Assembly (NCBI RefSeq): GCF_024713945.1
Contig: NC_134683.1
Span: forward strand, 1,726,501-1,790,500
Direction of reading: 5' to 3'
Length of the DNA: 64,000 nucleotides
Origin: Dermatophagoides farinae
Taxonomy: Eukaryota; Arthropoda; Arachnida; Sarcoptiformes; Pyroglyphidae
Numbering within the stretch: the first letter of the stretch is position 1; the number at the start of each line of letters is the position of its first letter. This document shows, piece after piece, positions 8,322 through 42,381 of this stretch. Position numbers and translations under genes: made by a program. Below the pieces are notes generated by a model. It did not search any database and was not told the DNA's origin. It saw only the letters and a list, made by a program, of their open reading frames with translations.

Positions 8322-9671
8322 TTAATTATTTTTTTGATTTATTTTTTTTTTTTGGTTTTGATATTTCTCACAAATTTCTTCAACACGTTTGGCCAATTTT
8401 TCTTTATCATTTTCTGATCCACGTATACGTTCGCCAATTTTTGCCATTCGTTCTGTTAATTGTTCATCATCCAATAATCGTTGAATGGTATCCAAAAATT
8501 CTTTTTCACTTGATTCAAATGGATTTAATCGTGCACCAAGACCAACTTCAACTAAACGTTGTGCATTATCAAATTGATCATCAAATGTTGGTAAAATGAG
8601 CATTTTTTTGCCAAAATAAAATGATTCCGTTACCGTATTATTACCACCATGTGTAATGACCAAATCGACCAATGGTAATATGGCTTTTTGTGGTAGAAAT
8701 TTATCGCCCCACATATTTTCTGATAGATCATATTCCATTGGTCCTTTTGAAACAATAAATCGATTTGGTGATTTACTAAAAATGCCCACCAATCGTTTCA
8801 TTAGGCCAACGTTTGAACATCCAAACGATCCCATTGAGAATAGAATCAATTTGCCCGGTTTATTACGAATCGATTCTGGAATATCGAATTGTTGTTGTGC
8901 TGTTTTCCGCATAAGATTGTCGACACCAAAGATATTTTCAGGTAATTCATTCATTTCTTGATATCGCATTTCAAGTGGCCACATATAAATATTCAAATAT
9001 GGTGATAATGGATGAAGACGATTATTCAATGGTTGCATTCCTTTTTCCATTGAATATTCATTAATATCATTAAACAATGATTCGTAAGCTTTATTTGTTC
9101 TTTGTTGAAATTCTTGCCATTGTTTCTTATCACCATTCGATGGTAAACCTGAATAAAATGGTGGTAAACGTGGATCCATAATCATTGCTTGTGGTGCAGC
9201 AGAAAAAAGCCATATCCATGGTATACCGGACATTATAATGGCCGGACAGCTTATATAACAATCACTAATAATCAAATCTGGCCGGATATCTTCAATCGAT
9301 TTACGATAAATATCTTCAACACTACGTTGTTGATCAAACATCGTACGAAACACTGTCGGATTCAATTGTTCCATCTGTTCAACTGGTGACAGACTATATA
9401 GTTTTGCATTATGAGATAAAAACCATTGCCAGAATTCAATTTTTTCACCAGATTCATTCTCTATAGTTGGTTTTGGCATACGATAATGACATTCTTCAAA
9501 ACCAAATGGTTTTAAACGGCCAGCAAATTCTTCGTCAATTAAAAACACAACATCATGACCATGATCACGAAGTTTATCGCAAAGTCCTTGACAAGCATTT
9601 ATATGACCAACAGCATTCATAACAATCGCAAGTATTCGATATCGTGGTCGTTGTTGTTCTTGTTGACTCAT
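8322..9671 (-). CDS. UDP-glycosyltransferase, cytosolic type, intronless
   Basis: A single 449-residue frame. UGTs transfer sugar from a UDP-sugar to small lipophilic molecules, a phase-II detoxification step. The N-terminus has the acceptor-side pattern with the expected catalytic His at 23 (VGHINACQGL). The C-terminal half has the nucleotide-sugar-binding signature around HGGNNT (341-346), followed by P-x-F-D-D-Q-x-D-N-A. No N-terminal signal peptide and no C-terminal membrane anchor are visible, unlike typical insect or vertebrate ER UGTs; the tail is a charged K/Q/N-rich helix. This short soluble form resembles the UGTs of spider mites, which were proposed in the literature to derive from bacterial genes. 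That origin is knowledge of the family, not shown here. The start is the only ATG ahead of the conserved beta strand, and an AATAAA lies just past the stop. The endogenous substrate is unknown. Confidence 0.93.
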   Translation of the reverse strand: MSQQEQQRPRYRILAIVMNAVGHINACQGLCDKLRDHGHDVVFLIDEEFAGRLKPFGFEECHYRMPKPTIENESGEKIEFWQWFLSHNAKLYSLSPVEQMEQLNPTVFRTMFDQQRSVEDIYRKSIEDIRPDLIISDCYISCPAIIMSGIPWIWLFSAAPQAMIMDPRLPPFYSGLPSNGDKKQWQEFQQRTNKAYESLFNDINEYSMEKGMQPLNNRLHPLSPYLNIYMWPLEMRYQEMNELPENIFGVDNLMRKTAQQQFDIPESIRNKPGKLILFSMGSFGCSNVGLMKRLVGIFSKSPNRFIVSKGPMEYDLSENMWGDKFLPQKAILPLVDLVITHGGNNTVTESFYFGKKMLILPTFDDQFDNAQRLVEVGLGARLNPFESSEKEFLDTIQRLLDDEQLTERMAKIGERIRGSENDKEKLAKRVEEICEKYQNQKKKINQKNN

Positions 9672-15388: not shown

Positions 15389-16720
15389 ATGTCTAGACCA
15401 GAACGAGATTGGCGAATATTTTTTTACATTGTAAGACCAATAAAGAATAAATATCAACGTGATATTCATATAGTGGATATATTTGAAAGTGGTTTTCAAT
15501 ATCTAAAATATTTTACATTTCGTATTGATTATAATCGATATGATTATGGTAAACATAATATACGATTGTCATCTGATGTATTCAAACGTATTATACGAAA
15601 ATCAATATTCATATTTATGGTCATCTGTTATCCAATTTTATTATTATTATTCAATAATAATGATTATTTAATTAGTATCAAAATTCTTGAACAAATGGTA
15701 CATTCAAATGGAGTTGGTCTATTGTTATTTGAAATGATCATCATGATGTTTCTAGTGGAAACAATGTGGCTACGTTTATTACGTTCAATACTTAATTATA
15801 AATCATCGGAAAATGATTTTTTCATTGAATATGAAAATTTTGATGATGATAAACAATTGACAATGAAAATGAGACGATATTTGATACAATTTTATACGTT
15901 CAGTGAATATGGTTCCATTGTTGTTTATGATATATCAATGTTTGGTTTATTCATCATGACAATGATGCATACATATTTCTGTATTGAATATTATTTCAAT
16001 GATCGTATTACATTCATACAAATGATAACCGATATACCAATGTTTGCTATTACCTGTAATCATGTTTCCTATCTATTAGGACATTTGTTATTATCCATTA
16101 ATTTTCAATTATTTTTGATTGAATTTTTTAAATCACAATTAAAACATTTGTTACGTATATCACAATTTATGTTGATGGATTACAGACCAACAAAACGTTC
16201 ATATTATCTGGCAAAACAATTATTTTGGTCAAATTTTCAACGAAAATATGTACAACTTTATAGTGAAACCATTGGTTTTAATCGTACATTTAGCATTGTA
16301 TTGTTCTATATGGAAACCATATCCAAATTATCCATTCTGATGTCAACTATATTCTATAGTAAACAGATACATATGAGTGTTTATAATTCCACAGCATTAA
16401 TCGGTTTAATGTCATCATTTTGTTATACAACTTGTTTATATGCACGTATAACCGATTTACCATCTTGTAATCAACAATGTTCACGAACAATATCCTATTG
16501 GTTGGCAAGACAGACCAGATTTATGATCTATAGACCACAATGGCGACAATCAATTAAATCCAATCTATTCATGCAGACAATGACCAATAATCAATTTGGT
16601 TTTACATGTGGTCAATTATTTTTCATGACAAAATTTAAATATATTGAAATATTAATGATGAATCTGCCATTAATATTATTGTTTTATAAAAAAATTTGTA
16701 TTTCATCATCGATTTATTAA
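15389..16720 (+). CDS. Receptor-array gene 1: divergent gustatory-receptor-like membrane protein (subgroup A)
   Basis: An intronless frame of 443 residues and the most divergent of the eight. It shares the family plan: an N-terminal segment with a D-I-F-x-x-G-F-x-Y motif, several hydrophobic membrane segments, a charged middle loop, a helix with E-T-x-x-x-N-R-T and L-F-Y-M-E-T-x-x-K, and a C-terminal block in which S-N-L-F-x-Q-T-M precedes F-G-F-T-C-G-Q-L-F-F. The protein ends F-Y-K-K-I-C. Seven or so membrane spans and the length fit the insect/chelicerate gustatory-receptor family, which forms ligand-gated ion channels in chemosensory cells. The canonical TYhhhhhQF motif of span 7 is not evident, so the assignment is an inference. 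The start ATG follows a TAA-rich leader. No stop or frameshift is seen. Confidence 0.75.
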   Translation: MSRPERDWRIFFYIVRPIKNKYQRDIHIVDIFESGFQYLKYFTFRIDYNRYDYGKHNIRLSSDVFKRIIRKSIFIFMVICYPILLLLFNNNDYLISIKILEQMVHSNGVGLLLFEMIIMMFLVETMWLRLLRSILNYKSSENDFFIEYENFDDDKQLTMKMRRYLIQFYTFSEYGSIVVYDISMFGLFIMTMMHTYFCIEYYFNDRITFIQMITDIPMFAITCNHVSYLLGHLLLSINFQLFLIEFFKSQLKHLLRISQFMLMDYRPTKRSYYLAKQLFWSNFQRKYVQLYSETIGFNRTFSIVLFYMETISKLSILMSTIFYSKQIHMSVYNSTALIGLMSSFCYTTCLYARITDLPSCNQQCSRTISYWLARQTRFMIYRPQWRQSIKSNLFMQTMTNNQFGFTCGQLFFMTKFKYIEILMMNLPLILLFYKKICISSSIY

Positions 16721-17104
16721 TAATGAATAATGATTCTCATGATGAATGAATGAAAAATTTTATTTTTGGTTTGATAAATGTTTATTTTTCTCATTTTTTT
16801 TTTTTTTTTTGAAAATACAATTTAGAATTCATTGCTCCATGAAAAACAATCAAAAAAAAAACAATCATCATAGATTTTAATCAAAAAAATAAAATTGAAA
16901 AATTCATAATTTTAATGTCTTGTTTATATATTGATTTGTGAAATGCATAATATTTGCCCCCCCAAAAAAAATCGATCACATTGTTTGATGATCTATTCAA
17001 TTTCATTAAAAAAAAAGAATTTGAATTTATTTGAATTTATTTTTTCATTTTGAAAATAGTTCTTGATTCTTCTTCTTTTAATTTTTTAAAATTCAAATAC
17101 CAAA
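16721..17104. promoter_or_regulatory. Spacer 1-2 of the array with a block shared by other spacers
   Basis: From about 16811 the sequence resembles the spacer before gene 3 (18526-18760): a stretch beginning AATTCATTG.TCC.TGAAAAAC, then ATTGATTTGT.AAATGCA and ATCGATCACAT..TTTGATGATCTATTC, then TTCTTGATTCTTCTTCTTTT just upstream of the ATG. Such sharing suggests duplicated promoter and leader sequence. It may hold receptor-specific cis elements, but no factor site was identified. Confidence 0.55.
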
Positions 17105-18451
17105 ATGGCAAAAACTAAAATGGCTATTCTTAGTATTGAGAAATATCGAAATATTCAAATATCGGATATATTTCATTGTGGATTTGAATATTGGAAAAAT
17201 TATACTCTACGTTGTGAATATTCATTGTATGAATATCAATATCGAATGATTTCGAAACGATTCGAATTTTTTCGCCATAATATATGGATATCATTCAATG
17301 CATGGGCTGGAATCCTATTCCTATTGGCAATGATTTGGGAACCATTCAACGAAATAATCATCGGAAATAAACATTTTGAACGTATAGTCGATGGTAAAAA
17401 AACCGATCTATTACTTATCTATGGAGCCATTTCATATTCAATTTTTGAATTAATGTGGTCGCATTTATTTAAAAATTTTCTTCATTATCGTTCATCAATG
17501 GATGATTATCTGATTAAAAATATTGATTATGATGAAAAACAATTATTACCAGAATTACAGTTATATTTGCGAAAGTTTTTTATCATTTCCGATTCAATTA
17601 CCGATCTATCACGCCGATTAGTATCGTTTTTCATCACGATAATATTGTTAATATACACAATTTTTGGTTGCATTTTATATCATGATAGTCGGATCAACTT
17701 ATTTCAATTGATTATAAGCGTTCCATTTTTTTCATTTTTTTGTCGTTATACTAAAACACGGGCAGCATATTTCATGATATTAAGTTTCTTAATATTTCTA
17801 ATAACGTTTCATAAAGTTCGTCTCCATCAATTGATGTTAAAATCACAAAAAACATTGAAACAAAAATCAACGAATCCACATTATTACCGTGGCCATCAAC
17901 GATTCAATCTGAATGAAAAAATTAATAAAATATTTTGGAATCGTTTCCAGATTGAATATGTAAATCTGTATGCCGAAACGGCACAACTCAATCGTACAGT
18001 CAGTTTAATACTTTTTTATATGGAAACAATGTCAAAATTTGCCATCATATTTTCTTGTGTTTTCATTAGCCAACAGTTGAAAATGAATTGGATGAGTTTC
18101 TCATCCGTAATGGCTATTATGAGCCTTTTTTTCCTAATATTATGCCTGAATTGCATAATAACAACTATACCATCGATTGATAAGAATTGTAGCAAATTTA
18201 TTTTCTATGATTTGGCTCGTTCACAATGGCATCGTTTTAGAATGGTCAATCAATCAATGACCGTTAGTTTAGTATGGCGACATTGGATTAAATCTAATTT
18301 ATTCGTACAAACAATGACTGAAAATCGTTTTGGTTTTACATGTGGTCAATTATTTTTCATTACAAAATTTAAATATTTTGAAATGTTATTCTTAAATTTA
18401 CCATTGATAATGTTGTTTTACAAGAAAATTTGTTTATCTGGATCGATTTGA
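17105..18451 (+). CDS. Receptor-array gene 2: gustatory-receptor-like protein (subgroup B)
   Basis: Intronless, 448 residues. Hydrophobic stretches lie near 61-78, 100-118, 172-192, 198-212, 221-238, 298-321, 333-354 and 410-438, consistent with about seven spans and one re-entrant or weak segment. The N-terminus MAKTKMAILSIEKYRNIQIS is almost shared with gene 3. The C-terminal block N-L-F-V-Q-T-M-T-E-N-R-F-G-F-T-C-G-Q-L-F at 398-417 is the family signature. A basic loop around 238-280 (many K/R, H) separates the third and fourth spans from the later ones. A role as chemosensory ion channel is inferred from size, topology and tandem expansion. The ATG at 17105 is supported by alignment with gene 3. 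Confidence 0.78.
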   Translation: MAKTKMAILSIEKYRNIQISDIFHCGFEYWKNYTLRCEYSLYEYQYRMISKRFEFFRHNIWISFNAWAGILFLLAMIWEPFNEIIIGNKHFERIVDGKKTDLLLIYGAISYSIFELMWSHLFKNFLHYRSSMDDYLIKNIDYDEKQLLPELQLYLRKFFIISDSITDLSRRLVSFFITIILLIYTIFGCILYHDSRINLFQLIISVPFFSFFCRYTKTRAAYFMILSFLIFLITFHKVRLHQLMLKSQKTLKQKSTNPHYYRGHQRFNLNEKINKIFWNRFQIEYVNLYAETAQLNRTVSLILFYMETMSKFAIIFSCVFISQQLKMNWMSFSSVMAIMSLFFLILCLNCIITTIPSIDKNCSKFIFYDLARSQWHRFRMVNQSMTVSLVWRHWIKSNLFVQTMTENRFGFTCGQLFFITKFKYFEMLFLNLPLIMLFYKKICLSGSI

Positions 18452-18827
18452 AAATTGTTTCGCTAATGTTTTTCTTCACTTTAATTACCTTTGTAAATGA
18501 ATATTGAGAATTTATGTTTTTTGTTAATTCATTGGTCCGTGAAAAACAACACGAAACAATCATAGATTTTATTCAGAAATAAAACTAAAAGATTCGTTAT
18601 TATGCCTTGAATATTGATTTGTAAAATGCAAAATATTTATTCAAAAAATCGATCACATCGCTTGATGATCTATTCAATTTCATTGAAAAAAAAATCTTGA
18701 AGAATTTGAATTTATTTTTCATTTTGTGAAAAGTTCTTGATTCTTCTTCTTTTAATTTTTTAAAATTCAATTTTGTGTTAGACAAAAGCTTTTCGAAACT
18801 ACTTTTTTTTAAAATTGAAATATCAAA
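18452..18827. promoter_or_regulatory. Spacer 2-3 of the array
   Basis: The first part (18452-18513) matches the 3' flank of gene 3 (20181-20252), and the rest matches spacer 1-2. It carries the shared ATCGATCACATCGCTTGATG block near 18648 and the CTTGATTCTTCTTCTTTTAA block near 18736. No other gene is visible. Confidence 0.55.
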
Positions 18828-20180
18828 ATGGCAAAAACTAAAATTGCTATTCTTAGTATGAATAAATATCGAAATATTCGAATATCGGATATATTTCATT
18901 GTGGATTTGAATATTGGAAAAATAATGCTCTACGATGTGAATATTCATTGTATGAATATCAATATCGAAAGATTTCAAAACGATTCGAATTTTTTCGCCA
19001 TAATATATGGATATCATTCAATGCATGGGCTGGAATTCTATTCCTATTCGCGATGATTTGGGAACCATTCAATGATTTAATCATCGGAAATGAACATTAT
19101 AAACGTATGGTCGATTGTGAAAGAACCGATATATTGCTGTTATTTACGGCCATTTCTTTTTCAATTCTTGAATTAATGTGGTTACATTTATTCAAAAATT
19201 TTCTTCAATATCGTTCATCAATGGATGATTATATGATTAACAATATTGATTATGATGAAAAACAATTATCACCAGAATTACAGCTATATTTACGAAAGTT
19301 TTTTACCATTTACGATATAATTTCCGATCTATTTCATCGATTATTATCATATTTTATCACACTAACATTGTTGATATACACAATTTTCGGTTGCATTTCC
19401 CTTCTGAATAGTCGAATCAACTTATTGCAATTGATTATAAGTATTCCATTTTTTTCATTTTTTTGCCGTTATTCTAAAACTGGTGTAGCAAGTTTTGTGA
19501 CAATGACAATGGGTTTCATATTATTTTTGGTCGAACTTCATAAAGTTCGTCTTAAACAATTGATGTTAAAATCAAGAAAAACATTAAAACAAAAATCGAC
19601 GAATCCACATTATCACCGTGGCCATCAACGATTCAATCTGAAAGAAAAAACGAAGAAAATATTTTGGAATCGTTTTCATATTGAATATGTAAATCTGTAT
19701 GCCGAAACGGCACAACTTAATCGTACAGTCAGTTTAATACTTTTTTATATGGAAATTGTAGCCAAATTTGCCATCATAGTTTCTTGTGTATTCATCAGCC
19801 AACAGTTTAAAATGAATTGGTTCAGCTTATCATGCGTAGTGGCTATAATGACCCTTTTCTTCCTTATGGTAGGTATAAATTCCTTAATCGCAGCTCTACC
19901 ATCATATGATCAGAAATGTGGCAAACTTATTCTTTATAATTTGGCTCGTTCACAATGGCATCGTTTTCGAATGGTCAATCAATCCACAAATGCTAGTTTA
20001 TTATGGCGACATTGGATCAAATCTAATCTATTCGTACAAACAATGACTGAAAATCATTTTGGTTTCACATGTGGCCAATTGTTCTTTATTACTAAATCCA
20101 AATATGCCGAGATATTATTGTTAAATTTGCCCTTGATAATGTTGTTTTACAAAAAAATTTGTTTATCTGGATCGATTTGA
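18828..20180 (+). CDS. Receptor-array gene 3: gustatory-receptor-like protein (subgroup B)
   Basis: Intronless, 450 residues, close to gene 2 at both ends (both finish S-G-S-I). Topology and signature blocks are as in gene 2. A stretch of about 313 bp (19698 to about 20010) is base-for-base the same as 23679-23991 in gene 5 by my reading, although the upstream halves of the two genes differ, which points to gene conversion or unequal exchange. The frame is intact, so the gene is probably functional. Ligand unknown. Confidence 0.78.
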   Translation: MAKTKIAILSMNKYRNIRISDIFHCGFEYWKNNALRCEYSLYEYQYRKISKRFEFFRHNIWISFNAWAGILFLFAMIWEPFNDLIIGNEHYKRMVDCERTDILLLFTAISFSILELMWLHLFKNFLQYRSSMDDYMINNIDYDEKQLSPELQLYLRKFFTIYDIISDLFHRLLSYFITLTLLIYTIFGCISLLNSRINLLQLIISIPFFSFFCRYSKTGVASFVTMTMGFILFLVELHKVRLKQLMLKSRKTLKQKSTNPHYHRGHQRFNLKEKTKKIFWNRFHIEYVNLYAETAQLNRTVSLILFYMEIVAKFAIIVSCVFISQQFKMNWFSLSCVVAIMTLFFLMVGINSLIAALPSYDQKCGKLILYNLARSQWHRFRMVNQSTNASLLWRHWIKSNLFVQTMTENHFGFTCGQLFFITKSKYAEILLLNLPLIMLFYKKICLSGSI

Positions 20181-20764
20181 AAATTGTTTTACTAATGTAT
20201 TTCTACACTCTAATTACCTTTGTAAATGAATATTCAGAATTTATGTTTTTTGTTAAGATTGAATACAGCACAAGTAGAGACGTAAATAATACATAATACA
20301 CATAAAATTCACACAAGAGACTGGTTGTTGTGGTTTTTAATAACATGCTCACCAATCAATACATATGGAATCATTGTTATTGTAATTGTTGCTGCATATG
20401 TCAACAATAGCACTTAATTTTTTACATTTTTTTCTGATCCAAATGAAAAAAGTTAATTTTGATCAAAAATAAACTGGAAAAAAACTCATCATCTTTATGT
20501 TGAATATCGATTTTTGGAGACCAAATAAAATTCATTATAACACATAATGATCTGTTTAATTAAATTATATGTCTACCTTTATGGAACTTTGAACATAATA
20601 ATTAACATTTCTATATTCTTAATGATCAGTAACATATAATGGATCGTAAAATTTTTTCTCGTTCATTTAGAAATTTCTTTTTCATTAATTTAATTTTGTT
20701 CCAGTTTGTGTGTGATTGTTGAATGTTTTCATACAAAAATATTTTTCTTATTTCTGTGAGAAAA
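20181..20764. promoter_or_regulatory. Spacer 3-4 of the array, with a unique insert
   Basis: Positions 20181-20252 match the 3' flank of gene 2. About 20253-20445 has no counterpart in spacers 1-2 or 2-3 and includes ATACAGCACAAGTAGAGACG; it looks like an inserted fragment of unknown origin. From about 20520 the sequence again resembles the leaders of genes 5 and 6 (ACATAATGATC.GTTTAATT, ATATGTCTAC, then GATCAGTAACATATAATGGA). The segment 20723-20764 is in frame with gene 4 but aligns with untranslated leader of gene 6. Confidence 0.5.
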
Positions 20765-22099
20765 ATGAGGATAACATTTCTGAATTTTGGTAAATATCGA
20801 AATATTCAAATATCGGATATATTTCATTATGGATTTAAATATTGGAAAAATAATACACTACGATGTGAATACTCATTATATGAATATCAATATCGAATGA
20901 TTTCAAAACGATTCAAATTTTTTCGCCGTAATATATGGATATCATTCAATGCATGGGCAGGAATTCTATTCCTATTCGCAATGATTTGGGAACCATTCAA
21001 TGATATAATCATTGGAAATGAACATTATAAACGTATGGTCGATTGTGAAAGAACCGATCTATTATTGTTCTTTGCAGCCATTGCATATTCAATGCTTGAA
21101 TTAATGTGGTTACATTTATTCAAAAAATTTTTTCGTTATCGTTCATCAATGGATGATTATCTGGTTAAAAATATTGATTATGATGAAAAACAATTACTAA
21201 CAGAATTACAGCTATATTTGCGAAAGTTTTTTATCATTTCTGATCTGATAGCTAATCTATTACGTCGATCAGTAACGTATTTCATCACACTAATATTGTT
21301 GATATATACAATTTTCGGTTGCATTTTCTACCTTGATGGTCGAATCAACTTATTTCAATTGATTATAAGTATTCCATTTTTTTCATTATTTTGTCGTCAT
21401 ACTAAAAATTCTGCAGCAAATTTTATGACAATGAGTTTCATATTATTTTTGCTCGAATTTCATAAAGTGCAACTTAAACAATTGATGTTAAAATCACAAA
21501 AAACATTGAAACAAAAATCAACGAATCCACATTATCACCGTGGCCATCAACGATTCAATCTGAATGAAAAAATTAATAAAATATTTTGGAATCGTTTCCA
21601 GATTGAATATGTAAATCTTTATGCCGAAACTGCACAACTTAATCGTACGGTCAGTTTGATACTTTTTTACATGGAAACTGTAGCCAAATTTTCTATCATA
21701 GTTTCTTGTGTATTCATCAGCCAACAGTTTAAAATGAATTGGTTCAGCTTATCATCCGTAATGGTTATAATGGGCATTTTCTTTCTAATGTTAGGTATAA
21801 ATACACTAATCGCAACTTTACCATCATATGATCAGAAATGTGGCCAATTTATTCTTTATGGTTTGGCTCGTTCACAATGGCATCGTTTTCGAATGGTCAA
21901 TCAATCCACAAATGCTAGTTTATTATTATGGCGACATTGGATCAAATCAAATCTATTCGTGCAAACAATGACTGAAAATCATTTTGGTTTTACATGTGGC
22001 CAATTGTTCTTTATTACTAAATCCAAATATACAGAAATATTATTGTTAAATTTACCATTGATATTACTATTTTACAAGAAAATTTGTCTATCACCTTAA
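20765..22099 (+). CDS. Receptor-array gene 4: gustatory-receptor-like protein (subgroup B)
   Basis: Intronless, 444 residues from the ATG at 20765. An upstream in-frame ATG at 20723 would add 14 residues, but that segment aligns with the non-coding leader of gene 6, and the N-terminus MRITFLNFGKYRNIQ matches MKITFLNLDKYRNIQ of gene 6. The family signature near the C-terminus (N-H-F-G-F-T-C-G-Q-L-F-F) is present. It ends C-L-S-P rather than S-G-S-I, as do genes 5 and 6. A TTA triplet insertion (N-A-S-L-L-L-W-R) is shared only with gene 5. Confidence 0.78.
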   Translation: MRITFLNFGKYRNIQISDIFHYGFKYWKNNTLRCEYSLYEYQYRMISKRFKFFRRNIWISFNAWAGILFLFAMIWEPFNDIIIGNEHYKRMVDCERTDLLLFFAAIAYSMLELMWLHLFKKFFRYRSSMDDYLVKNIDYDEKQLLTELQLYLRKFFIISDLIANLLRRSVTYFITLILLIYTIFGCIFYLDGRINLFQLIISIPFFSLFCRHTKNSAANFMTMSFILFLLEFHKVQLKQLMLKSQKTLKQKSTNPHYHRGHQRFNLNEKINKIFWNRFQIEYVNLYAETAQLNRTVSLILFYMETVAKFSIIVSCVFISQQFKMNWFSLSSVMVIMGIFFLMLGINTLIATLPSYDQKCGQFILYGLARSQWHRFRMVNQSTNASLLLWRHWIKSNLFVQTMTENHFGFTCGQLFFITKSKYTEILLLNLPLILLFYKKICLSP

Positions 22100-22823
22100 T
22101 TAGCCAACTTAATTGTGAAATGATTTCTATATTAAATAATAAAATTGTCGGACCGATTAAACAAATTCTGTCAGATCGACCGGCTGCTTTCTTATCCAGA
22201 CGATACAAAAAATTCTTGAAAAGTAACATCACAGGCTTGTTGTCATCAACGCAAAATCCACAATGTAACGGGCTCAATGAACGAACAAATCAAGAATTGA
22301 TAAAATGATTGAGATGCAAAATAAACGATCCAAGTTGATGATGACATTCTCGTGGAAATTGCATATGACCAAAACAAAAGTTGACCACTTTTATTGAACG
22401 CACAAATAAAATTCTAAAGGTTGTATCAGAATCGAACGTGGAAATGAATTGGCCAAACTAACACACAAATAAGAAAACAGAGGTAATTAATTTCAACAAA
22501 CTAAGGCTATATCATCATGATCCGGGAAAATTTCGAATAGGGGCGGGGAGATGTCACGACATATAAGAAATATTTATTCAAAAAAAAAAAATCAATTACA
22601 ACAGATAATGATCCATTTAATTTTTTTATTATATGTCTCTGTTCACGAAACTTTGAATAAAATAAGCATTCCTATACTTATTGATCAGTAAAATATCTAG
22701 GATTGAAAAATATTTTTCTTGCTCATTTTGGGAAAAAGTTTCTTTTTTCATTTATTTAATTTTGTTTCAGTGTGTGTGGTTGTTGTTTTATGCAAAAACT
22801 TTTTCGTATTTTTTGAGAAAAAA
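22100..22823. other. Spacer 4-5 of the array, split by a retrotransposon fragment
   Basis: The first 40 bp are the 3' flank shared with genes 5 and 6 (TAATTAGCCAACTT...). A Ty3/gypsy fragment follows to about 22565. After it, the conserved upstream block of the array resumes (ATTTATTC, an A run, AATGATCCATTTAATT, TATATGTCTC.GTTCACG, TTGATCAGTAA.ATATCTAGG). Positions 22719-22823 are in frame with gene 5 but align with the untranslated leader of gene 6. Confidence 0.65.
22143..22565 (+). mobile_element. Dead Ty3/gypsy-type LTR retrotransposon fragment (integrase end, purine tract, LTR start)
   Basis: Translation of about 22140-22305 gives the end of an integrase catalytic core: S-D-R-P-A-A-F containing the second acidic residue, then S-S-T-Q-N-P-Q-x-N-G-L-N-E-R-T-N with the third. 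After that the frame decays through stops and shifts (weak D-x-x-L-V-E-I-A-Y-D-Q-N similarity). Near 22538-22551 there is a purine-rich AGGGGCGGGGAGA followed directly by TGTCACGACAT, the arrangement of a polypurine tract and LTR start. RT, protease and gag are absent, so the copy is non-functional. Flanks on both sides match neighbouring array spacers, so it was inserted into an existing receptor spacer. Confidence 0.8.
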
Positions 22824-24158
22824 ATGATAATAAAATTTCCAAATTTCGATAAATATCGAAATATTCAAATATCGGATATATTTCATTATGGATTTAAATA
22901 TTGGAAAAATAATACATTACGTTGTGAATATTCAGTGTATGAATATCAATATCGATTGATTTCAAAACGATTCGAATTTTTTCGCCATAATATATGGATA
23001 TCATTCAATGCATGGACCGGAATTCTATTCCTATTGGCAATGATTTTGGAACCATTCAATGATATAATCATCGGAAATGAACATTATAAACGTATGGTTG
23101 ATTGTGAAAGACTCGATCTATTAATGATCTTTGGAGTCATTGCATATTCAATTTTTGAATTAATGTATTTTCATTTATTCAAAAATTTTCTTCGTTATCG
23201 TTCATCAATGGATGATTATCTGGTTAACAATATTGATTATGATGAAAAACAATTACTACCAGAATTACGGCTATTTTTGCGAAAGTTTTTTATCATTTCT
23301 GATATAATTACCGATCTTTTTCATCGATTATTATCGTATTTTATCACATTAACATTGTTTATATACACAATTTTCGGTTTCATTTCCTATCTGAATAGTC
23401 TAATCAACTTTTTGCAATTGATTATAAGTGTTCCAATGTTTTCAATTTTTTGTCGTTATACTAAAACTCGCGCAGCATATTTTATGATGTTAAGTTTCAT
23501 TGTATTTCTAATTGAATTTCATAAAGTTCGTCTTAAACAATTGATGTTAAAATCACAAAAAATGATGAAACAAAAATCAACAAATTCTCATTGTCACTAT
23601 GGCCATCAACTATTCAATCTGAAAGAAAAAATGAAGAAAATATTTTGGAATCGTTTTCATATTGAATATGTAAATCTTTATGCCGAAACGGCACAACTTA
23701 ATCGTACAGTCAGTTTAATACTTTTTTATATGGAAATTGTAGCCAAATTTGCCATCATAGTTTCTTGTGTATTCATCAGCCAACAGTTTAAAATGAATTG
23801 GTTCAGCTTATCATGCGTAGTGGCTATAATGACCCTTTTCTTCCTTATGGTAGGTATAAATTCCTTAATCGCAGCTCTACCATCATATGATCAGAAATGT
23901 GGCAAACTTATTCTTTATAATTTGGCTCGTTCACAATGGCATCGTTTTCGAATGGTCAATCAATCCACAAATGCTAGTTTATTATTATGGCGACATTGGA
24001 TCAAATCAAATCTATTCGTGCAAACAATGACTGAAAATCATTTTGGTTTTACATGTGGTCAATTATTCTTTATTACTAAATCTAAATATACCGAAATATT
24101 ATTGTTAAATTTACCATTGATATTACTATTTTACAAGAAAATTTGTCTATCACCTTAA
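22824..24158 (+). CDS. Receptor-array gene 5: gustatory-receptor-like protein (subgroup B, mosaic)
   Basis: Intronless, 444 residues from the ATG at 22824; the frame is open upstream to 22719, but that part aligns with untranslated leader. The protein is a mosaic. Its N-terminal half is its own version of the subgroup, about 23679-23991 is identical to gene 3, and the last part (N-A-S-L-L-L-W-R onward, ending C-L-S-P) matches gene 4 nearly base for base. All family motifs and spans are retained. Recent sequence exchange within the array is the likely cause; an assembly collapse or chimera is the alternative. Confidence 0.78.
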   Translation: MIIKFPNFDKYRNIQISDIFHYGFKYWKNNTLRCEYSVYEYQYRLISKRFEFFRHNIWISFNAWTGILFLLAMILEPFNDIIIGNEHYKRMVDCERLDLLMIFGVIAYSIFELMYFHLFKNFLRYRSSMDDYLVNNIDYDEKQLLPELRLFLRKFFIISDIITDLFHRLLSYFITLTLFIYTIFGFISYLNSLINFLQLIISVPMFSIFCRYTKTRAAYFMMLSFIVFLIEFHKVRLKQLMLKSQKMMKQKSTNSHCHYGHQLFNLKEKMKKIFWNRFHIEYVNLYAETAQLNRTVSLILFYMEIVAKFAIIVSCVFISQQFKMNWFSLSCVVAIMTLFFLMVGINSLIAALPSYDQKCGKLILYNLARSQWHRFRMVNQSTNASLLLWRHWIKSNLFVQTMTENHFGFTCGQLFFITKSKYTEILLLNLPLILLFYKKICLSP

Positions 24159-24964
24159 TTAGCCAACTATTGTGGAATGATATCTCAAATTAAATGATAA
24201 TTGTCTTTTCTTCCATTTTGGAGAATATTCATTTGGTGTGGATGTGGGCAGTCTTCAACGGATAAATTCGTGGTGTTGGCTGTGTGAGGCCTGTAGTGTT
24301 AGGATGCTCTAAGTTGGAACGTAATTTAAAAAGGTGTTCATTGTGTGGTTTACTTTTCTTAATGAGATAGGTGATGGAGCGATAGCGAATTTTCAGGTCG
24401 ATTGGATCAATGTTCGCCAGAACTAAGGTCGCTTAAGTTGAAATTCGATGACATATATTATATATAGTTTTTAATACGTCACGATAATAACTCCCAGATA
24501 TTTCATGTGTTTCATCATTTCGATCTTGGTAACTTTCATCTGGGAATCTATTTCTCCAGTTTTCCATTTCTTCGTGATGATAATTGCTTGCGTTTTATTT
24601 GGTTTGAATTCAATATTGTTGTTTTCGCCCCATTTAGCTATTTTCTCAAACACTTTTTTGGTCCGATACTCGTATATGTCAAGATTTTCGTGAGATACTT
24701 TCAGAAAAGACAAAATATTTATCCAAAAAAATCGACTACAACACAATGATCCATTTAATTTAATTTAATTATCTGTCTCTGATCACGGAAAGTTGAACAA
24801 AATAAATTTTTCTGTACTTATTGATCAGTAACATATCTAGGATCGCAAAATTTTTTCTTGCTCATTTTGTGAAACAGTTCGCAATTTTTTTTTCATCAAT
24901 TTAATTTTGTTTAAGTCTTTGAATGTTTTTATGCAAAAACATTTTTCGTATTTTTTGAAAAAAA
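24159..24964. other. Spacer 5-6 of the array, containing a LINE fragment
   Basis: The first about 50 bp are the shared 3' flank. Positions about 24229-24710 are a minus-strand LINE relic, annotated separately. From about 24712 the conserved upstream block resumes (ATTTATCC, A run, ACACAATGATCCATTTAATT, ATCTGTCTCTGATCACGGAA, TTGATCAGTAACATATCTAG, GATCGCAAAATTTTTTCTTG) and leads into gene 6. Confidence 0.65.
24229..24710 (-). mobile_element. Dead non-LTR (LINE) retrotransposon fragment, reverse-transcriptase C-terminal region
   Basis: On the minus strand, residues read from about 24705 down to 24471 give T-K-K-V-F-E-K-I-A-K-W-G-E-N-N-N, then F-K-P-N-K-T-Q-A-I-I-I-T and H-M-K-Y-L-G-V-I-I. These are the post-catalytic W...N..K(T)..hhh and KYLGVhh motifs of Jockey/R1-like LINE reverse transcriptases. 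After a break, a second frame ending with a TGA at 24229-24231 reads T-L-V-L-A-N-I-D-P-I-D-L-K-I-R, like the (v)LAGhhPLDL motif after LINE RT. Stops and a frameshift separate the two pieces and the YADD core is absent, so the element is inactive. It lies opposite to the receptor genes. Confidence 0.75.
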
Positions 24965-26296
24965 ATGAAGATAACATTTCTGAATTTGGATAAATATCGA
25001 AATATTCAAATATCGGATATATTTCATTGTGGATTTAAATATTGGAAAAATTATACTCTACGTTGTGAATATTCATTGTATGAATATCAATATCGAATCA
25101 TTTCGAAACGATTCAAATTTTTTCGCCGTAATATATGGATATCATTCAATGCATGGGCAGGAATTCTATTCTTATTGGCAATGATTTGGGAACCATTCAA
25201 GGATTTAATCATCGGAAATGAACATTATAAACGTATGGTCGATTGTGAAAGAACCGATCTATTAATTATCTTTGGAGCCATTGCTTTTTCAACTTTTGAA
25301 TTAATGTGGTTACATTTATTCAAAAATTTTCATCGTTATCGTTCATCAATGGATGATTATCTGGTTAACAATATCGATTATGATGAAAAACAATTAGCAC
25401 CAACATTGCAGCAATATTTACGAAAGTTTTTTATAATTTCCGATATAATTACCGATCTATTACGTCGATTATTATCGTATCTCATCACATTAACGTTGTT
25501 GATATACATAATTTTCGGTTGCAATTTATATCAGGATAGTCAAATTAACTTATTTCAATTGATCATAAGTATTCCATTATTTTCATTTTTTTGCCGTTAT
25601 ACTAAAAATCGTGCAGAAAATTTTATGTTACTAAGTTTCATATTATTTTTAGTAGAATTTCATAAAGTGCGACTAAAACAATTGATGTTAAAATCACAAA
25701 AAACATTAAAACAAAAATCAACGAATTCTCATTGTCACTATGGCCATCGGCTGTTTAATCTCAAAGAAAAAATGAAAAAAATATTTTGGAATCGTTTTCA
25801 TATTGAATATGTAAATCTGTATGCCAAAACGGCACAACTTAATCGTACAGTCAGTTTAATACTTTTTTATATGGAAACTGTAGCCAAATTTTCCATCATG
25901 GTTTCTTGTGTATTCATCAGTCGGCAGTTTAAAATTAATTGGTTCAACTCATCATCCTTAATGACTATAATGGGCTTTTTCTTTCTAATGGTAGGTATGA
26001 ATTCCCTAATCGCAACTCTACCATCATATGATCAGAAATGTGGCCAATTTATTCTTTATGATTTGGCTCGTTCACAATGGCATCGTTTTCGAATGGTCAA
26101 TCAATCCACAAATGTCAGTTTATTATGGCGACATTGGATCAAATCTAATCTATTCGTACAAACAATGACTGAAAATCGTCTTGGTTTTACATGTGGTCAA
26201 TTATTCTTTATTACTAAATCCAAATATACCGAAATATTATTGTTAAATTTACCATTGATATTTCTATTTTACGAGAAAATATGTCTATCACCTTAA
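24965..26296 (+). CDS. Receptor-array gene 6: gustatory-receptor-like protein (subgroup B)
   Basis: Intronless, 443 residues. The N-terminus MKITFLNLDKYRNIQIS aligns with gene 4, and the tail ends K-I-C-L-S-P. Same span pattern and C-terminal block, with N-R-L-G-F-T-C-G-Q in place of N-R-F-G-F-T-C-G-Q. The acidic residue in the usual Y-A-E-T-A-Q-L-N-R-T helix is replaced by Lys (Y-A-K-T), a change not seen in its neighbours. The frame is intact. Its upstream leader is the best reference for deciding the starts of genes 4 and 5. Confidence 0.78.
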   Translation: MKITFLNLDKYRNIQISDIFHCGFKYWKNYTLRCEYSLYEYQYRIISKRFKFFRRNIWISFNAWAGILFLLAMIWEPFKDLIIGNEHYKRMVDCERTDLLIIFGAIAFSTFELMWLHLFKNFHRYRSSMDDYLVNNIDYDEKQLAPTLQQYLRKFFIISDIITDLLRRLLSYLITLTLLIYIIFGCNLYQDSQINLFQLIISIPLFSFFCRYTKNRAENFMLLSFILFLVEFHKVRLKQLMLKSQKTLKQKSTNSHCHYGHRLFNLKEKMKKIFWNRFHIEYVNLYAKTAQLNRTVSLILFYMETVAKFSIMVSCVFISRQFKINWFNSSSLMTIMGFFFLMVGMNSLIATLPSYDQKCGQFILYDLARSQWHRFRMVNQSTNVSLLWRHWIKSNLFVQTMTENRLGFTCGQLFFITKSKYTEILLLNLPLIFLFYEKICLSP

Positions 26297-26832
26297 TTAG
26301 CCAACTATATTGTGAAATGATTTCTATATATTAAATACTAATGGTCTTTTTAGGCTTCTGGAGAAAAGTTTTGTTCCATGGTTTCATTATTCATTGATTT
26401 TGGTGATAATTACATTGAAAAATTGAATCAATTTTTGAAATCTAGTTCAAAAATTGCACAAACACATACACACACACACAAAATACACTAATTGTTCTCT
26501 TCTATTGATGTTTTCAATTTGTTTTTTTTTTTTTTTTGGTTGTCAATAATTTTTATATCTGTGAATTGAATTGAATTCAATATGGTAGACGCAAAGAAAA
26601 AATGAACTACATTTTTCACCTTATTCAATTATTCACTATGTTAAACTAGATTTCATAACAACCATAAAAAAACAATTTTGTTGATTCCATGACTACCATT
26701 ATGAGAAAAAAAAAATTTTCAGTTCTTTCCGGCCAAATTTTTTTCATGTTTTGTCAGATTGCTTTTTTCGTTTGAAAGTGTAAATTCATTGAATTGAATT
26801 TTAAAAAAAATTTCATTCAAATTTTGTTCACA
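26297..26832. promoter_or_regulatory. Spacer 6-7 of the array
   Basis: The first 45 bp are the subgroup-B 3' flank. From about 26383 the sequence is shared with the spacer before gene 8 (from about 28424): TTTTGGTGATAATTACATTG, a CA run here (26464-26480), ATTGAATTCAATATGGTAGA, TTCCATGACTACCATTAT and CATGTTTTGTCAGATT. This is therefore the upstream half of a duplicated subgroup-C unit. Confidence 0.6.
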
Positions 26833-28155
26833 ATGTTAACACGTTCAGAATGGCGGACATTGAATACGATAAGTTATTCAAATTATAAGAAAATTTGCAT
26901 CGATGACATACTATATCGTGGATTCCAATATTGGAAAATATTTTCATTTCGTTTTGAATATTCATTGAATGATTATTGTCAAAAACGTTTGGTACTTAAA
27001 TATTCACAATTTAAACGTGCCATACTGTTAATGATTCAAGCATGGTTGGCAATAATATTACAATCATCATTAGTTATATGGCCAAAAAGTCCATATCTAA
27101 TTGATCTTAAATATACTGAAGAAATATTACATTTACAACGCATTGATATTGTATTCATTCAAACAATTACCTTGTTCATACTTTTAGAATGTATGTGGTT
27201 TCATCTATTCAAGAATATAATTCATTATCGTTCATTTTTCACCAATTTTCTGGTGGCTAATCTACCATTCAATACAAAAAAACTTGATCCAGAATCTATA
27301 AAATATTTAATTCGTTTTTTTTATATTTCAGATTATTTTGCCATTTATTCATATAAAGTATTTCTATTCGGCATCATAAATATGGTCATTGCAGCTACCT
27401 ATTATGCATTTTATCTTTATATTAATGGTCAAATTAAAAGAATTCAATTGATTATTGTAATTCCTATATATATCATATATCTTCGTCACGTTGTATTCGT
27501 TATATGTCAATTATTTGTATCGATAAATTTTCTGGTATTTTTGGTTGGATATTTGACCATTAAATTCCGACGATTATGGAAATCATCACAGGCAATAGTG
27601 ACGAAAAAATTGCCATCAACTGAACATAATGCTACAATTGTATGGAAACGTTTTCATTATGGATATGTAACATTGTATAGTGAAACAGCTAAATTCAATG
27701 GAACCGTACGATCGATATTGTTTTATATGGAAACCATATCAAAATCATCATTGATTATGGCCACTATATTTTATAGTAGACAAAAAGTAATGGGCATTCA
27801 TAATACATTGGTCATTTTGGCTCTTGTGTTTGCATTTGTCTATACAAGCATATTGTTTTCACGTGTTGTATGTATGCCTTCATATAATCAACAATGTACA
27901 ATACATTTATCCAATTGGCTAGCACGTATACAACGAAAACGATTCAGTAATCGTAAAATTCGTAACATATGTAAACGTGTTGTATGGCAACGATTTATTA
28001 AATTAAATTTATTCTTTGAAACAATGATGGAAAATGGATTCGGTTTCACTTGTGGACAAGTGTTTCTGGTTACTAAATATGAATTCTTCAAATTATTCCT
28101 GATGAACATACCGTTTTTTATCTTATTCTATAAAAAGATTTGTTCAATTGATTGA
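26833..28155 (+). CDS. Receptor-array gene 7: gustatory-receptor-like protein (subgroup C)
   Basis: Intronless, 440 residues from the ATG at 26833; the frame is open a little further upstream, but without an ATG. It belongs to the family through the D-I-L-Y-R-G-F-Q-Y-W block, the Y-S-E-T-A-K-F-N-G-T and L-F-Y-M-E-T-I-S-K helix, and N-L-F-F-E-T-M-M-E-N-G-F-G-F-T-C-G-Q near the end. About seven hydrophobic segments are visible. By hand count it differs from gene 8 at about 36 of 440 positions, clustered in the loop near P-S-T-E-H-N and in the sixth span (I-L-A-L-V-F-A-F-V-Y). Confidence 0.78.
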   Translation: MLTRSEWRTLNTISYSNYKKICIDDILYRGFQYWKIFSFRFEYSLNDYCQKRLVLKYSQFKRAILLMIQAWLAIILQSSLVIWPKSPYLIDLKYTEEILHLQRIDIVFIQTITLFILLECMWFHLFKNIIHYRSFFTNFLVANLPFNTKKLDPESIKYLIRFFYISDYFAIYSYKVFLFGIINMVIAATYYAFYLYINGQIKRIQLIIVIPIYIIYLRHVVFVICQLFVSINFLVFLVGYLTIKFRRLWKSSQAIVTKKLPSTEHNATIVWKRFHYGYVTLYSETAKFNGTVRSILFYMETISKSSLIMATIFYSRQKVMGIHNTLVILALVFAFVYTSILFSRVVCMPSYNQQCTIHLSNWLARIQRKRFSNRKIRNICKRVVWQRFIKLNLFFETMMENGFGFTCGQVFLVTKYEFFKLFLMNIPFFILFYKKICSID

Positions 28156-28846
28156 GAAAAAAACTCAATTTATTCATTTTACAGTTATATTGAATTGTTG
28201 TCTTCAACCAACCATTATGCATTCAAATATCGATATTTATAAAAAAAAATGGCGGATCAAATATGGATTTTTCACTTTAACTTTTTCTTCAAAATAAAAT
28301 TCATCTGTATTTCACAGTTAAATTCATTTTTTTCTTGTGAAAAAAATTTACACTTTTATTTTATTTTAATTTGTTCACAATTCGTTTAATTATTTTTGCA
28401 CTAAAGTGTTATTTTCTGGTTTATTATTTTCATTGATTTTGGTGATAATTACATTGAAAAATTAAATCAATTTCTGTCAACTAGATCAAAAATTGTACAA
28501 AGTTGTCTTGGTGGAAAAAATTATTATATTTTCAAAAACAGATTCTTTTCTACACACACATGCACTAATTGTTCTCCTTTATTGATGTTTCCATTATTTT
28601 TTTTTGTCGTCCATAATTTTTATATATCTGAATGCGTATATTGAATTGAATTCAATATGGTAGACGTAAAGACAAAAAAAACAATTTTGTGGATTCCATG
28701 ACTACCATTATTAGAAAAAAAAATTTTCAGTTGTTTCCGGCCAAATTTTTTTTCATGTTTTGTCAGATTAAATTTTTCTTTTGAAAGTGTAAATTCATTG
28801 AATTGAATTGAAAAAAAACAAAAATCTCTTACAAATTTTGTTCACA
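28156..28846. promoter_or_regulatory. Spacer 7-8 of the array, second copy of the subgroup-C upstream block
   Basis: It begins with the 3' flank shared with gene 8 (AACTCAATTTATTCATTTTACAG, GAATTGTTGTCTTCAACCA, AATATCGATATTTATAAAAA). From about 28424 it repeats spacer 6-7. Corresponding positions in the two units are about 2.01 kb apart. No other gene is seen. Confidence 0.6.
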
Positions 28847-30169
28847 ATGTTAACACGTTCAGAATGGCGGACATTGAATACGATAAGTTATTCAAAATAT
28901 AAAAAAATTCGCATTGATGACATACTATATCGTGGTTTCCAATATTGGAAAATATTTTCATTTCGTTTCGATTATTCATTGGATGATTATTGTCAAAAAC
29001 GCTTGGTACTTAAATATTCACAATTTAAACGTGCCATACTGTTAATGATTCAAGCATGGTTGGCAATAATATTACAATCATCATTAGTTATATGGCCAAA
29101 AAGTCCATATTTAATTGATCCTAAATATACTGAAGAAATATTACATTTACAACGTATCGATATCGTATTTATTCAAACGATTACCATGTTTATCATTTTG
29201 GAATGTATGTGGTTTCATCTATTCAAGAATATAATTCATTATCGTTCATTTTTCACCAATTTTCTGGTGGCTAATCTACCATTCAATACAAAAAAACTTG
29301 ATCCAGAATCTATAAAATATTTAATTCGTTTTTTTTATATTTCAGATTATTTTGCCATTTATTCATATAAAGTATTTCTATTTGGCATTATAAATATGGT
29401 CATTGCAGCTACCTATTATGCATTTTATCTTTATATTAATGGTCAAATTAAAACAATTCAATTGATTATTGTAATTCCTATATATATCATATATCTTCGT
29501 CACGTTGTATTCGTTATATGTCAATTATTTGTATCGATAAATTTTCTGGTATTTTTGATTAGATATTTGACCATTAAATTCCGACGATTATGGAAATCAT
29601 CACATTCAATAGTGATGAAAAAATTGCCATCAACTGAACGTAATGATACAATTGTATGGAATCGTTTTCATTATGGATATGTAACATTGTATAGTGAAAC
29701 AGCTAAATTCAATGGAACCGTACGATCAATATTGTTTTATTTGGAAACAATATCAAAATTATCATTGATCATGTCGACTATATTTTATAGTAGACAAAAA
29801 GTAATGGGCATTCATAATACAATGGCTGCTCTGGTTATACTGTTTCTATTTATCTATACAAGCATATTGTATTCACGTGTTGTATGTATGCCTTCATATA
29901 ATCAACAATGTACAATACATTTATCCAATTGGCTAGCACGTATACAACGAAAACGATTCATTAATCGTAATATTCGTACCATATGTAAACGTGTTGTATG
30001 GCAACAATTTATTAAATTAAATTTATTCCTTGAAACAATGATGGAAAATGGTTTTGGTTTCACTTGTGGACAAGTATTTCTGGTTACTAAATATGAATTC
30101 TTCAAATTATTAGTGATGAACATACCGTTTTTTATTTTATTGTACAAAAAGATTTGTTCAATTGATTGA
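28847..30169 (+). CDS. Receptor-array gene 8: gustatory-receptor-like protein (subgroup C)
   Basis: Intronless, 440 residues; a tandem copy of gene 7, offset 2014 bp. Same motifs and spans; the frame is intact. Differences from gene 7 include N-D-T-I-V-W-N-R versus N-A-T-I-V-W-K-R in the middle loop and a fully rewritten stretch around the sixth span (N-T-M-A-A-L-V-I-L-F-L-F). That combination, conserved backbone with a variable loop and span, would fit divergence in ligand response, but this is inference. It is the last gene of the array. Confidence 0.78.
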   Translation: MLTRSEWRTLNTISYSKYKKIRIDDILYRGFQYWKIFSFRFDYSLDDYCQKRLVLKYSQFKRAILLMIQAWLAIILQSSLVIWPKSPYLIDPKYTEEILHLQRIDIVFIQTITMFIILECMWFHLFKNIIHYRSFFTNFLVANLPFNTKKLDPESIKYLIRFFYISDYFAIYSYKVFLFGIINMVIAATYYAFYLYINGQIKTIQLIIVIPIYIIYLRHVVFVICQLFVSINFLVFLIRYLTIKFRRLWKSSHSIVMKKLPSTERNDTIVWNRFHYGYVTLYSETAKFNGTVRSILFYLETISKLSLIMSTIFYSRQKVMGIHNTMAALVILFLFIYTSILYSRVVCMPSYNQQCTIHLSNWLARIQRKRFINRNIRTICKRVVWQQFIKLNLFLETMMENGFGFTCGQVFLVTKYEFFKLLVMNIPFFILLYKKICSID

Positions 30170-40125: not shown

Positions 40126-42381
40126 ATGTTTAGACATCGAACAATTGGATCATCATCATCATTATTCATTATCATTATACTTACATTTCTTTTACCAAGA
40201 TTATTTGGTCATCATGTGAGTTGTTTTGGTTGTTTTTCGAAAAAAAAAATTTTCTTGTTTTTTTCAAATTTTTTTTTCACTCCTCTACTTTATAAATGAT
40301 TAATATCGATATTTTTTTCAATCCATAAATTAATAAATTCAATAGATATATTCAGGCCATTGATCCGATTGATCAGATTCAGAACACACACGATTCTCGA
40401 TAATGATCATTCATCATCGAATGGTCACGAATATTATGATCAAAAAATTCAAGTTTTTCTTGGTTGTTGTTGTTGTTGTTGTTGCATAAGAAATTGGCGA
40501 TATTAAATCGCTGAGATCGATATGATGATGATGATGATGATGATTATCAGCACCCAAACGTAGTTAAAAATCAAATGAAAAAAAAATAAACTAAAAAAAA
40601 AGAAAATTTCCATGTTCCTTACCTCTCATTCAAATATAGCACAATTATTCAATTATATATCGATATCGAATTATTGATCAAAAAAAAAAATCGACAATCG
40701 ATAATCGATAGTCATCATCGAATAATAGCAAAAATTTCTATAGAAATTTTTTTTTGTTTATTTACTTTTTTACATTTTCGTTATTTTTATTACAAGAAAA
40801 AAATTCAATTCTTTCATCTCTTATCTGTTCTATCTATCTATCTATCTACAAAAAAATTTTCACATGAACACGAACACGCACATTTTTTTTTTTTTTTGGT
40901 TTCAAGAAAAAATCTGTCTTCATCATCTATCATCGATCTATAATGTCATGTATGCTGTCCATTATAATTCATCATCATCAATGATATGACCGATTTGTGT
41001 GTGTGTGTTTTTTTTTATCGGAGAAGGTCAACGGTAAATCAACTGATATTTTAGCCACAAAAAAACTAGTTTTTTTTTAATACCTTGTAATTCTTTTACA
41101 TCTGACCGTTGTTGTTGTTGTTGTCGTTGTCATCAAAGTCGCGACTTGATGAATAAAAATTGATTTTCATTTATTTCAAAAAAATTTTTCATTTTGACTA
41201 ATGGATTTTCTCTATTCATTTCTATAATTTGTTTTTTCCTATTGATCCATTTCAGGTTGTCACACAAATCTCACTATACTATGAAACATTATGTCCAGAT
41301 TCAAGAAATTTTTTTCGCAATCAATTATATCCAACATATGAAAAATTGAATCGTTATATGGACGTTGAATTAGTACCATTTGGTAATGCTAATGTTAGCT
41401 ATCCACGACATGATAATAAACCAGTATTCCATTGTCAACATGGACCAAAAGAATGTTATGGTAATCGTGTTCAAGCTTGTACGATTGAAATGTTAAAGAA
41501 TACTGATCTATCCATAAGATTCGTACGTTGTATGTTTGATCAACATGATTATAGAGAAACATCACAAACATCACGTCGTGTATGTATATATTGTTGTTTT
41601 TATTTATTGGTCTTTTATTTTTGTTTTTTTCACAATAATAATCAAAATTAAATGATTAGTGTGCTGAACAAATGCAATTAGATTGGCCAAAAATATCATC
41701 CTGTGCTGATGGTAGTGAAGGTGAACGTTTATTGATTGCAAATTCATTGAAAACATTCAATCTTAATCCTGAACATACATATGTACCATGGATTGTGATT
41801 GATAAGAATCATACTAAACAAATGCAAACCGGTGCCGAAACGAATCTATTACAATTTCTATGTGATAATTATTTCAATCATGTAAGTAATATTTTTTTTT
41901 TTGTTTGTTTCGTTCACCTCAATTTTCCAATTCATTTCCATTTTTAAGTTGAAAAAATTACACACAAATTTGACAATTTGACCTATTATGATTTCAATAT
42001 GTTTCAATTTCTAATTCGATGAACTTATATGATTTTTTTTCCTTTCACCTTTCTTTCTTTTTCACAATTTGTTCTTCTTTTTTTCCATTTTAAGTGTATT
42101 AGAAGCGAAAAAAAAAATTTGAAATTCAATTTGCCCCTCATTTGTTGACCTATCTATCTATCTATCTATTTATTTATTTATTTTTCACATTTCAACACTT
42201 TTAATAATTTTTTTTTGTCTGTTTGAAACATATGAATAATTCCTAGGAACCACAAATTGAACAATGTTCAAAAGAAGCAATCAGTCTTAGTCAACATTTA
42301 AACGCTGCAATCAAGCCTGAAGCTGCCATTATATCGATGATGATGACCGCAACAATAGTAATTATGTCGTCATTGCTATAA
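40126..42381 (+). CDS. GILT: GILT-type lysosomal thiol reductase, 4 exons
   Basis: Exons 40126-40215, 41256-41579, 41660-41881 and 42247-42381 all join in phase 0 to give 256 residues. Exon 1 encodes a signal peptide (MFRHRT then a hydrophobic I/L/F core). The family active site is C43-P-D-S46, the CXXS variant of the CXXC redox motif, in the context Y-Y-E-T-L-C-P-D-S. The GILT signature C-Q-H-G-P-K-E-C-Y-G-N-R-V-Q-A-C spans 90-105. Further cysteines (C-M-F-D-Q; S-S-C-A-D-G; C-D-N-Y) match the family. GILT reduces disulfides of proteins in lysosomes and has immune roles in arthropods. The protein ends in a hydrophobic stretch (A-A-I-I-S-M-M-M-T then I-V-I-M) after a small-residue region, which could be a membrane or GPI-anchor signal and is unusual. 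The first exon was chosen by signal peptide, phase and GTGAGT donor. Confidence 0.92.
40216..41255 (+). other. GILT intron 1 (1040 bp)
   Basis: The donor GTGAGT and acceptor CATTTCAG flank it; it separates the signal-peptide exon from the mature domain. It is long for this window and full of AT-rich repeats, including a TTG run near 40463 and a TCTA run near 40832. Confidence 0.75.
41580..41659 (+). other. GILT intron 2 (80 bp)
   Basis: The donor GTATGT and acceptor AATGATTAG flank it. Removal joins T-S-R-R to C-A-E-Q-M, restoring a conserved Cys. Confidence 0.85.
41882..42246 (+). other. GILT intron 3 (365 bp)
   Basis: The donor GTAAGT and acceptor ATTCCTAG flank it. It has a pyrimidine-rich tail and a TCTA tetranucleotide run near 42152. 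Removal joins Y-F-N-H to E-P-Q-I-E-Q-C. Confidence 0.85.

Follow-up and report, generated by a model that had tools for sequence, protein, structure and literature searches.

A probable family of divergent gustatory receptor-like channels in the dust mite Dermatophagoides farinae

The DNA analyzed here, a 64,000-nucleotide stretch of the genome of the dust mite Dermatophagoides farinae (the window; C7:1726501-1790500, where C and a number denote a contig), carries a tandem array of eight related genes, g1 to g8. We place the probability at about 0.82 that this array is part of a family of approximately 74 loci encoding divergent gustatory receptor (GR)-like channels of the 7TMIC superfamily, presumably chemosensory, in which the pore is fixed and the ligand pocket is variable. 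By Pfam and by the motif of the seventh transmembrane segment (TM7), these proteins are not canonical GRs, and their membership in 7TMIC is suggested by predicted topology, profile comparison, and a modeled fold. The family may be responsible for a large share of the chemical sensing carried out by this mite.

The array and its family

A first-pass annotation of the window had described eight intact, intronless genes on one strand. Eight plus-strand open reading frames (ORFs) indeed run from ATG to stop between positions 15389 and 30169, and the genes appear intronless on the basis of these full-length open frames. The stated length of 440-450 residues applies to seven of them, but g4 (458 residues, with a start codon that is possibly a later Met) widens the range to 440-458. 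All eight proteins can be aligned over their full length with a mean column identity of 65%, and g7 and g8 are 92% identical. The C-terminal signature said to be common to the array is exact in seven genes, with g6 departing from it at two places (RLGFTCGQ for xFGFTCGQ and FYEKIC for xYKKIC). The genes are listed below, each assigned by ORF, alignment, and tree, and g3 also by a structure model. S7a and S7b denote the two parts of the last span.

15389..16720 (+): g1, candidate GR-like channel of 443 residues (locus L015); a lone lineage in the family tree
17105..18451 (+): g2, 448 residues (L007); opens the recent tandem clade g2-g6
18828..20180 (+): g3, 450 residues (L003); AlphaFold2 target matching insect GRs
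20022..20156 (+): g3 S7a block and predicted S7b pore helix, residues 399-443; under stronger constraint than the rest of the family proteins, by logo, pN/pS (0.15), and position-specific scoring matrix (PSSM)
20723..22099 (+): g4, 458 residues (L005)
22824..24158 (+): g5, 444 residues (L004); 3' half with a g3-like tract
24965..26296 (+): g6, 443 residues (L006); signature altered at two places
26833..28155 (+): g7, 440 residues (L018); paired with g8
28847..30169 (+): g8, 440 residues (L014); paired with g7

When the whole genome (22 contigs, 62,435,336 bases) was searched with g3, 85 match pieces were recovered at E values up to 0.01, which a script joined into about 74 loci, calling 54 full and 20 partial. 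Most lie on C6 or between 1.10 and 2.06 Mb of C7, where they form several tandem groups. A separate rule, independent of this count, required a unique ORF of at least 400 residues from stop to stop that matches the family hidden Markov model (HMM) at E < 1e-20, and yielded 57 intact members (373-515 residues when trimmed to the first Met). This rule picks single ORFs and is silent on introns in the remaining loci, which are partial, broken, or split (some in two pieces) and may include intron-bearing genes. Starting from L059, one of the most divergent members, a search gave 73 pieces; judged by eye, none lay outside the loci found with g3, and thus the family looks closed. The array had been put forward as a candidate for an undescribed system; it is real, but it amounts to only about one-ninth of the family rather than the whole system. 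A tree of the 57 members divides the window genes into three lineages: g1 alone, g2-g6, and g7-g8 together with a gene outside the window (C7:1613978), about 140 kb away.

The open frames had been taken as a sign of function, and this view gains support from ratios of nonsynonymous to synonymous change (dN/dS) of 0.29-0.53 in all 28 pairs of array genes. Across 30 family pairs with a synonymous difference (pS) below 0.35, the ratio is 0.29-0.78, where 20 of the pairs come from two clades of five and are not independent. A tract of about 375 nucleotides in the 3' half of g5 is 99-100% identical to g3 while the remainder differs, which suggests gene conversion. As a separate observation, one young clade (L025, L032, L033, L037, and L042; C7:1893561-1901841 and C7:1102960) has a nonsynonymous difference (pN) in its pocket helices of 0.210 against a pS of 0.177, a hint of diversifying selection; the L043/L045 pair behaves likewise (0.168 against 0.138).

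Relationship to conventional gustatory receptors

Family size, open frames, selection, the missing canonical TM7 motif, and similarity to conventional GRs are all read from sequence; for the last of these, the comparison was with conventional GRs of the same mite. Searches of the genome with Pfam 7tm_7 and 7tm_6 gave three loci, and such searches plus two follow-up protein searches reached the following four genes.

C6:145007: L060, conventional GR, multi-exon; spliced 7tm_7 match of 54.0 bits (cut-off 26.6)
C4:4563515: L066, conventional GR, multi-exon; spliced 7tm_7 match of 34.7 bits (cut-off 26.6)
C3:6466.4 kb: L067, conventional GR, multi-exon; no Pfam match
C5:4962.2 kb: L068, conventional GR, multi-exon; no Pfam match

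L067 and L068 match L060 and L066 at E 4.9e-24. At the nucleotide level, all four genes have a phase-0 GT...AG intron at one common position between S7a and S7b. Exons were annotated by splice sites and frame, and the upstream joints of L067 and L068 by frame, with some off by one residue. The TM7 sequences read SYFLIVADF, TYFSVILES, or QNFLLI(V/I)DF, with D or E at the position of the insect Q. A further locus, L061 (C4:5657907), gives a 7tm_7 score of 28.7 bits over several ORFs in C4:5656000-5659500, apparently as two similar exon sets in tandem; the GR profile consists of the four spliced genes above and leaves this locus out.

The family profile aligns with this GR profile over 252 columns, spanning g3 residues 137-429 (hhalign, local E 8.6e-6, score 48.5; global E 6.2e-8, score 42.5). 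Shuffling columns within windows of ten preserves the hydrophobicity profile, and alignments treated in this manner came nowhere near the real scores, either locally (maximum 24.4 among 200) or globally (maximum 11.5 among 100). A reversed alignment scored 13.0 and 5.1, respectively, and three unrelated proteins of the window (two ABC transporter pieces and one UDP-glycosyltransferase) scored 14.5-19.1 locally. The match does not come from one spot, since it survives both without the last 70 columns (E 0.003 local, 2.2e-4 global) and in those columns alone (2.6e-4). Within the S7a block, the PSSM gives L067 +6.1 and L068 +2.1 bits; among 97,704 decoy positions the top score is -11.2, roughly that of L066 (-11.1).

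Predicted topology and structure point in the same direction. About seven hydrophobic segments had been noticed in the array, and hydropathy averaged over the 57 members gives eleven stretches above threshold that were merged by hand into seven spans. Counts of K+R and D+E over the same members predict an inside N-terminus, short outer loops, and long inner loops. A GR/odorant receptor (OR) fold with a split S7 is predicted by a low-confidence AlphaFold2 model of g3 (model 2), for which the first 19 fold matches are GR, OR, or Orco structures.

Constraint is distributed unevenly along the proteins. The pN/pS ratio is 0.15 in S7a and S7b, 0.36 in TM5, and 0.43 in TM1, compared with 0.86 in TM2, 0.75 in TM3, 0.69 in TM4, and 0.80 in TM6. 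The nonsynonymous rate of TM2, TM3, TM4, and TM6 exceeds that of TM1, TM5, and S7 combined in 11 of 12 clades. In BmGr9, the pore is lined and gated by residues of the TYhhhhhQF motif, and the walls of the ligand pocket are formed by S2-S5 (PMC11100771). In the main, the constraint pattern suits such a plan of fixed pore and variable pocket.

Contrary results and competing explanations

Several results weigh against the assignment to GR-like channels. Neither Pfam 7tm_7 (PF08395) nor 7tm_6 (PF02949) matched any of the eight array or 57 family proteins at E values up to 10, a limited negative because HMMER filters drop most matches above E of about 0.1; L060, at 54.0 bits with 7tm_7, was the positive control. 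These models had been suggested as a check for GR identity and, used alone, would have misled. Profiles of the eight and of the 57 members likewise found no PDB sequence match at E values up to 10; as a positive control, the L060 exon matched Drosophila Gr64a in PDB at E 4.5e-5, and the L067 model gave no such match. Subsets of the conventional GRs match weakly (L060 with L066, local E 0.0065; L067 with L068, 0.0091), each above its own shuffles, and the family profile does not match the single L060 exon. With hmmsearch, the family HMM gives L068 15.9 bits, L060 3.8, L067 0.3, and L066 -1.5, the highest score among 78 decoy ORFs being 5.9. Conversely, an HMM of the four GRs finds five of the 57 members at E values up to 10, with E of 0.0004-0.0012 for four. 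The S7a block of L060 scores -16.4, a value reached by four decoy positions and 374 of 20,000 shuffles, and L061 has no S7a block in the stretch examined. Furthermore, charge contrast is lower per residue than in counts (about 0.13-0.15 inside, 0.04-0.10 outside), and the lysine pair that follows the last span would fall outside. Confidence is low for both structure models, and the fold matches of model 1 (predicted template modeling score 0.28) were BAR domains, with no GR among them. Without S7, the excess in TM2, TM3, TM4, and TM6 over TM1 and TM5 is seen in only nine of 12 clades. Finally, TYhhhhhQF is found in S7b of none of the 57 members.

The replacement of this motif had been noted in the first-pass annotation, and it is the extent of our claim regarding the gate. 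All 57 members carry [NSD][FLIV]x5[FLV][YH] within their last 60 residues, followed in most by the lysine pair (K442 is present in 51 members, K443 in 48). In profile alignments, three residues are deleted close to where the intron was lost, such that F440 corresponds to the F of QF and N433 to the Y of TY; L067 and L068 have QNF...DF where these alignments place N433 and F440. The ends of the fold alignments (444/445 for 8vv3, 445/446 for 8vc2, 447/426 for 8jm9, and 433/435 for 8vc1) mostly suit a gapless register that brings K442-K443 to QF, in a region where the predicted local distance difference test score is about 30. F440 and the lysine pair are both candidates for the gate residue. Because TYhhhhhQF is not kept, the pore is probably different from that of BmGr9.

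If these proteins are GR-like channels, they would assemble as tetramers around S7b in sensory neurons, bind ligand among the bundled helices TM2-TM4 and TM6, and gate a cation pore by moving S7b. The family may go back to an intron-free copy of a conventional GR that had phase-0 introns. This copy, possibly a product of retroposition, would have multiplied through tandem duplication together with partial gene conversion. Diversification would then have proceeded copy by copy in the presumed ligand-binding helices with the pore nearly fixed. A bolder proposal, for which we see low odds, is that the chemical sense of dust mites was rebuilt on one intronless GR-like lineage of tuning subunits that either pair with one of the few conventional GRs, as a mite counterpart of the OR-Orco system, or conduct ions with altered selectivity. 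Such proteins would not be ordinary GR homomers, because the pore glutamine and TY pair have been lost and a lysine pair has been gained at the outer end of S7b.

Chemoreceptor families typically form large tandem arrays, duplicate within single lineages, include partial copies, and are less constrained in the pocket. The same features here, among them the loosened constraint in the presumed pocket helices, argue against the family being GR homologs of the 7TMIC type with other channel duties, such as in the gut, the gonads, or development. That explanation is unlikely, but it is helped by reports that some superfamily members are expressed outside sense organs, such as in spermatocytes and muscle (PMC9998090).

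It is quite improbable that the family is a separate group of polytopic membrane proteins that resembles GRs by convergence, with the profile match reflecting a common hydrophobic pattern. The missing Pfam and PDB matches, the hmmsearch scores within the decoy range for three of four GRs, the weak matches to GR subsets, and the low model confidence all speak for such a group. Against it, none of the 200 local or 100 global shuffled alignments came near the real score, the unrelated window proteins stayed at 14.5-19.1, the S7a residues of L067 and L068 match at the correct place, and the leading fold matches of model 2 are GR, OR, or Orco. Thus, a very divergent GR clade, one of two options offered at the outset, is favored over a separate family by the profile match with its controls, the predicted seven spans with the N-terminus inside, and the low-confidence fold match. 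A rhodopsin-like or other G protein-coupled receptor (GPCR) family, suggested by the seven predicted spans, can be set aside almost entirely, as the predicted charge pattern is inverted and no GPCR family is among the 14 Pfam families matched by the 57 members.

Neighboring genes, significance, and comparison with known systems

The window contains other genes besides the array. Exon-like pieces at 41202-41947 (+) resemble a gene for GILT (gamma-interferon-inducible lysosomal thiol reductase), which we take to be a candidate by its motif. A 200-residue ORF at 43724-44326 (+), with a signal-like start and KPARFGKR, resembles by eye the precursor of an amidated ...PARF neuropeptide. On the minus strand are a UDP-glycosyltransferase-like gene with a single 449-residue ORF (8322-9671; UDPGT, E 1.9e-13), two ORFs like ABC transporter exons (44871-48640; ABC_tran matched in 44871-46019, the only one of the two scanned), and an uninterrupted 650-residue ORF (52841-54793) with no Pfam match at E values up to 0.01.

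No description of this family was found in searches of a library of Creative Commons-licensed PMC papers, a scope that most subscription papers fall outside. Going by current annotation, taste receptors seem scarce in dust mites, with three Pfam loci here and four genes in Dermatophagoides pteronyssinus (PMC12105342). Approximately 74 loci that are invisible to Pfam models would change this picture, and GR counts for acariform mites that are derived from Pfam or BLAST are possibly too low. The family would also supply a concrete list of receptors that may detect cues from food, host skin, and pheromones in a species that causes allergy; neryl formate has been described as an aggregation pheromone of dust mites (PMC6275457). 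It would also amount to a natural test of which TYhhhhhQF pore-gate elements are replaceable.

The four GR-like genes of D. pteronyssinus, from a 2025 transcriptome with KEGG annotation, are close in number to the conventional GRs modeled here, and the present expansion goes unmentioned in the available text of that report (PMC12105342). Among acariform mites, GRs have also expanded strongly within the lineage of Tetranychus urticae, a parallel by description rather than by sequence, for which 689 GR genes are tabulated (PMC6275457; Ngoc et al. 2016 as cited there and in PMC7738191). Compared with the insect GRs of known structure BmGr9, DmGr43a, and DmGr64a, the family has TYhhhhhQF replaced and, in most members, a lysine pair at the S7b end. 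It resembles the conventional GRs of the same mite in its profile match along TM3-S7a and shares with L067 and L068 the S7a block F-I-Q...G-F-x-C...F-x-I-T, whereas those GRs are multi-exon, have the phase-0 intron between S7a and S7b, exist in few copies, and carry other TM7 sequences.

The nearest precedent is the Drosophila Grl proteins, which were identified by structure since their GR sequence features had been lost (Benton and Himmel 2023, PMC9998090). Like these members of 7TMIC, the mite proteins combine GR-like length, topology, and a predicted split-S7 fold with hardly any GR sequence features, and in both groups the TM7 motif is altered and some members are in tandem (PMC9998090). 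The Grl set comprises ten genes, mostly restricted to flies, two of which have been shown to retain a phase-0 intron before TM7 (PMC9998090). The mite family, in contrast, has about 74 loci, 57 full-length single ORFs, and a TM7 consensus of its own.
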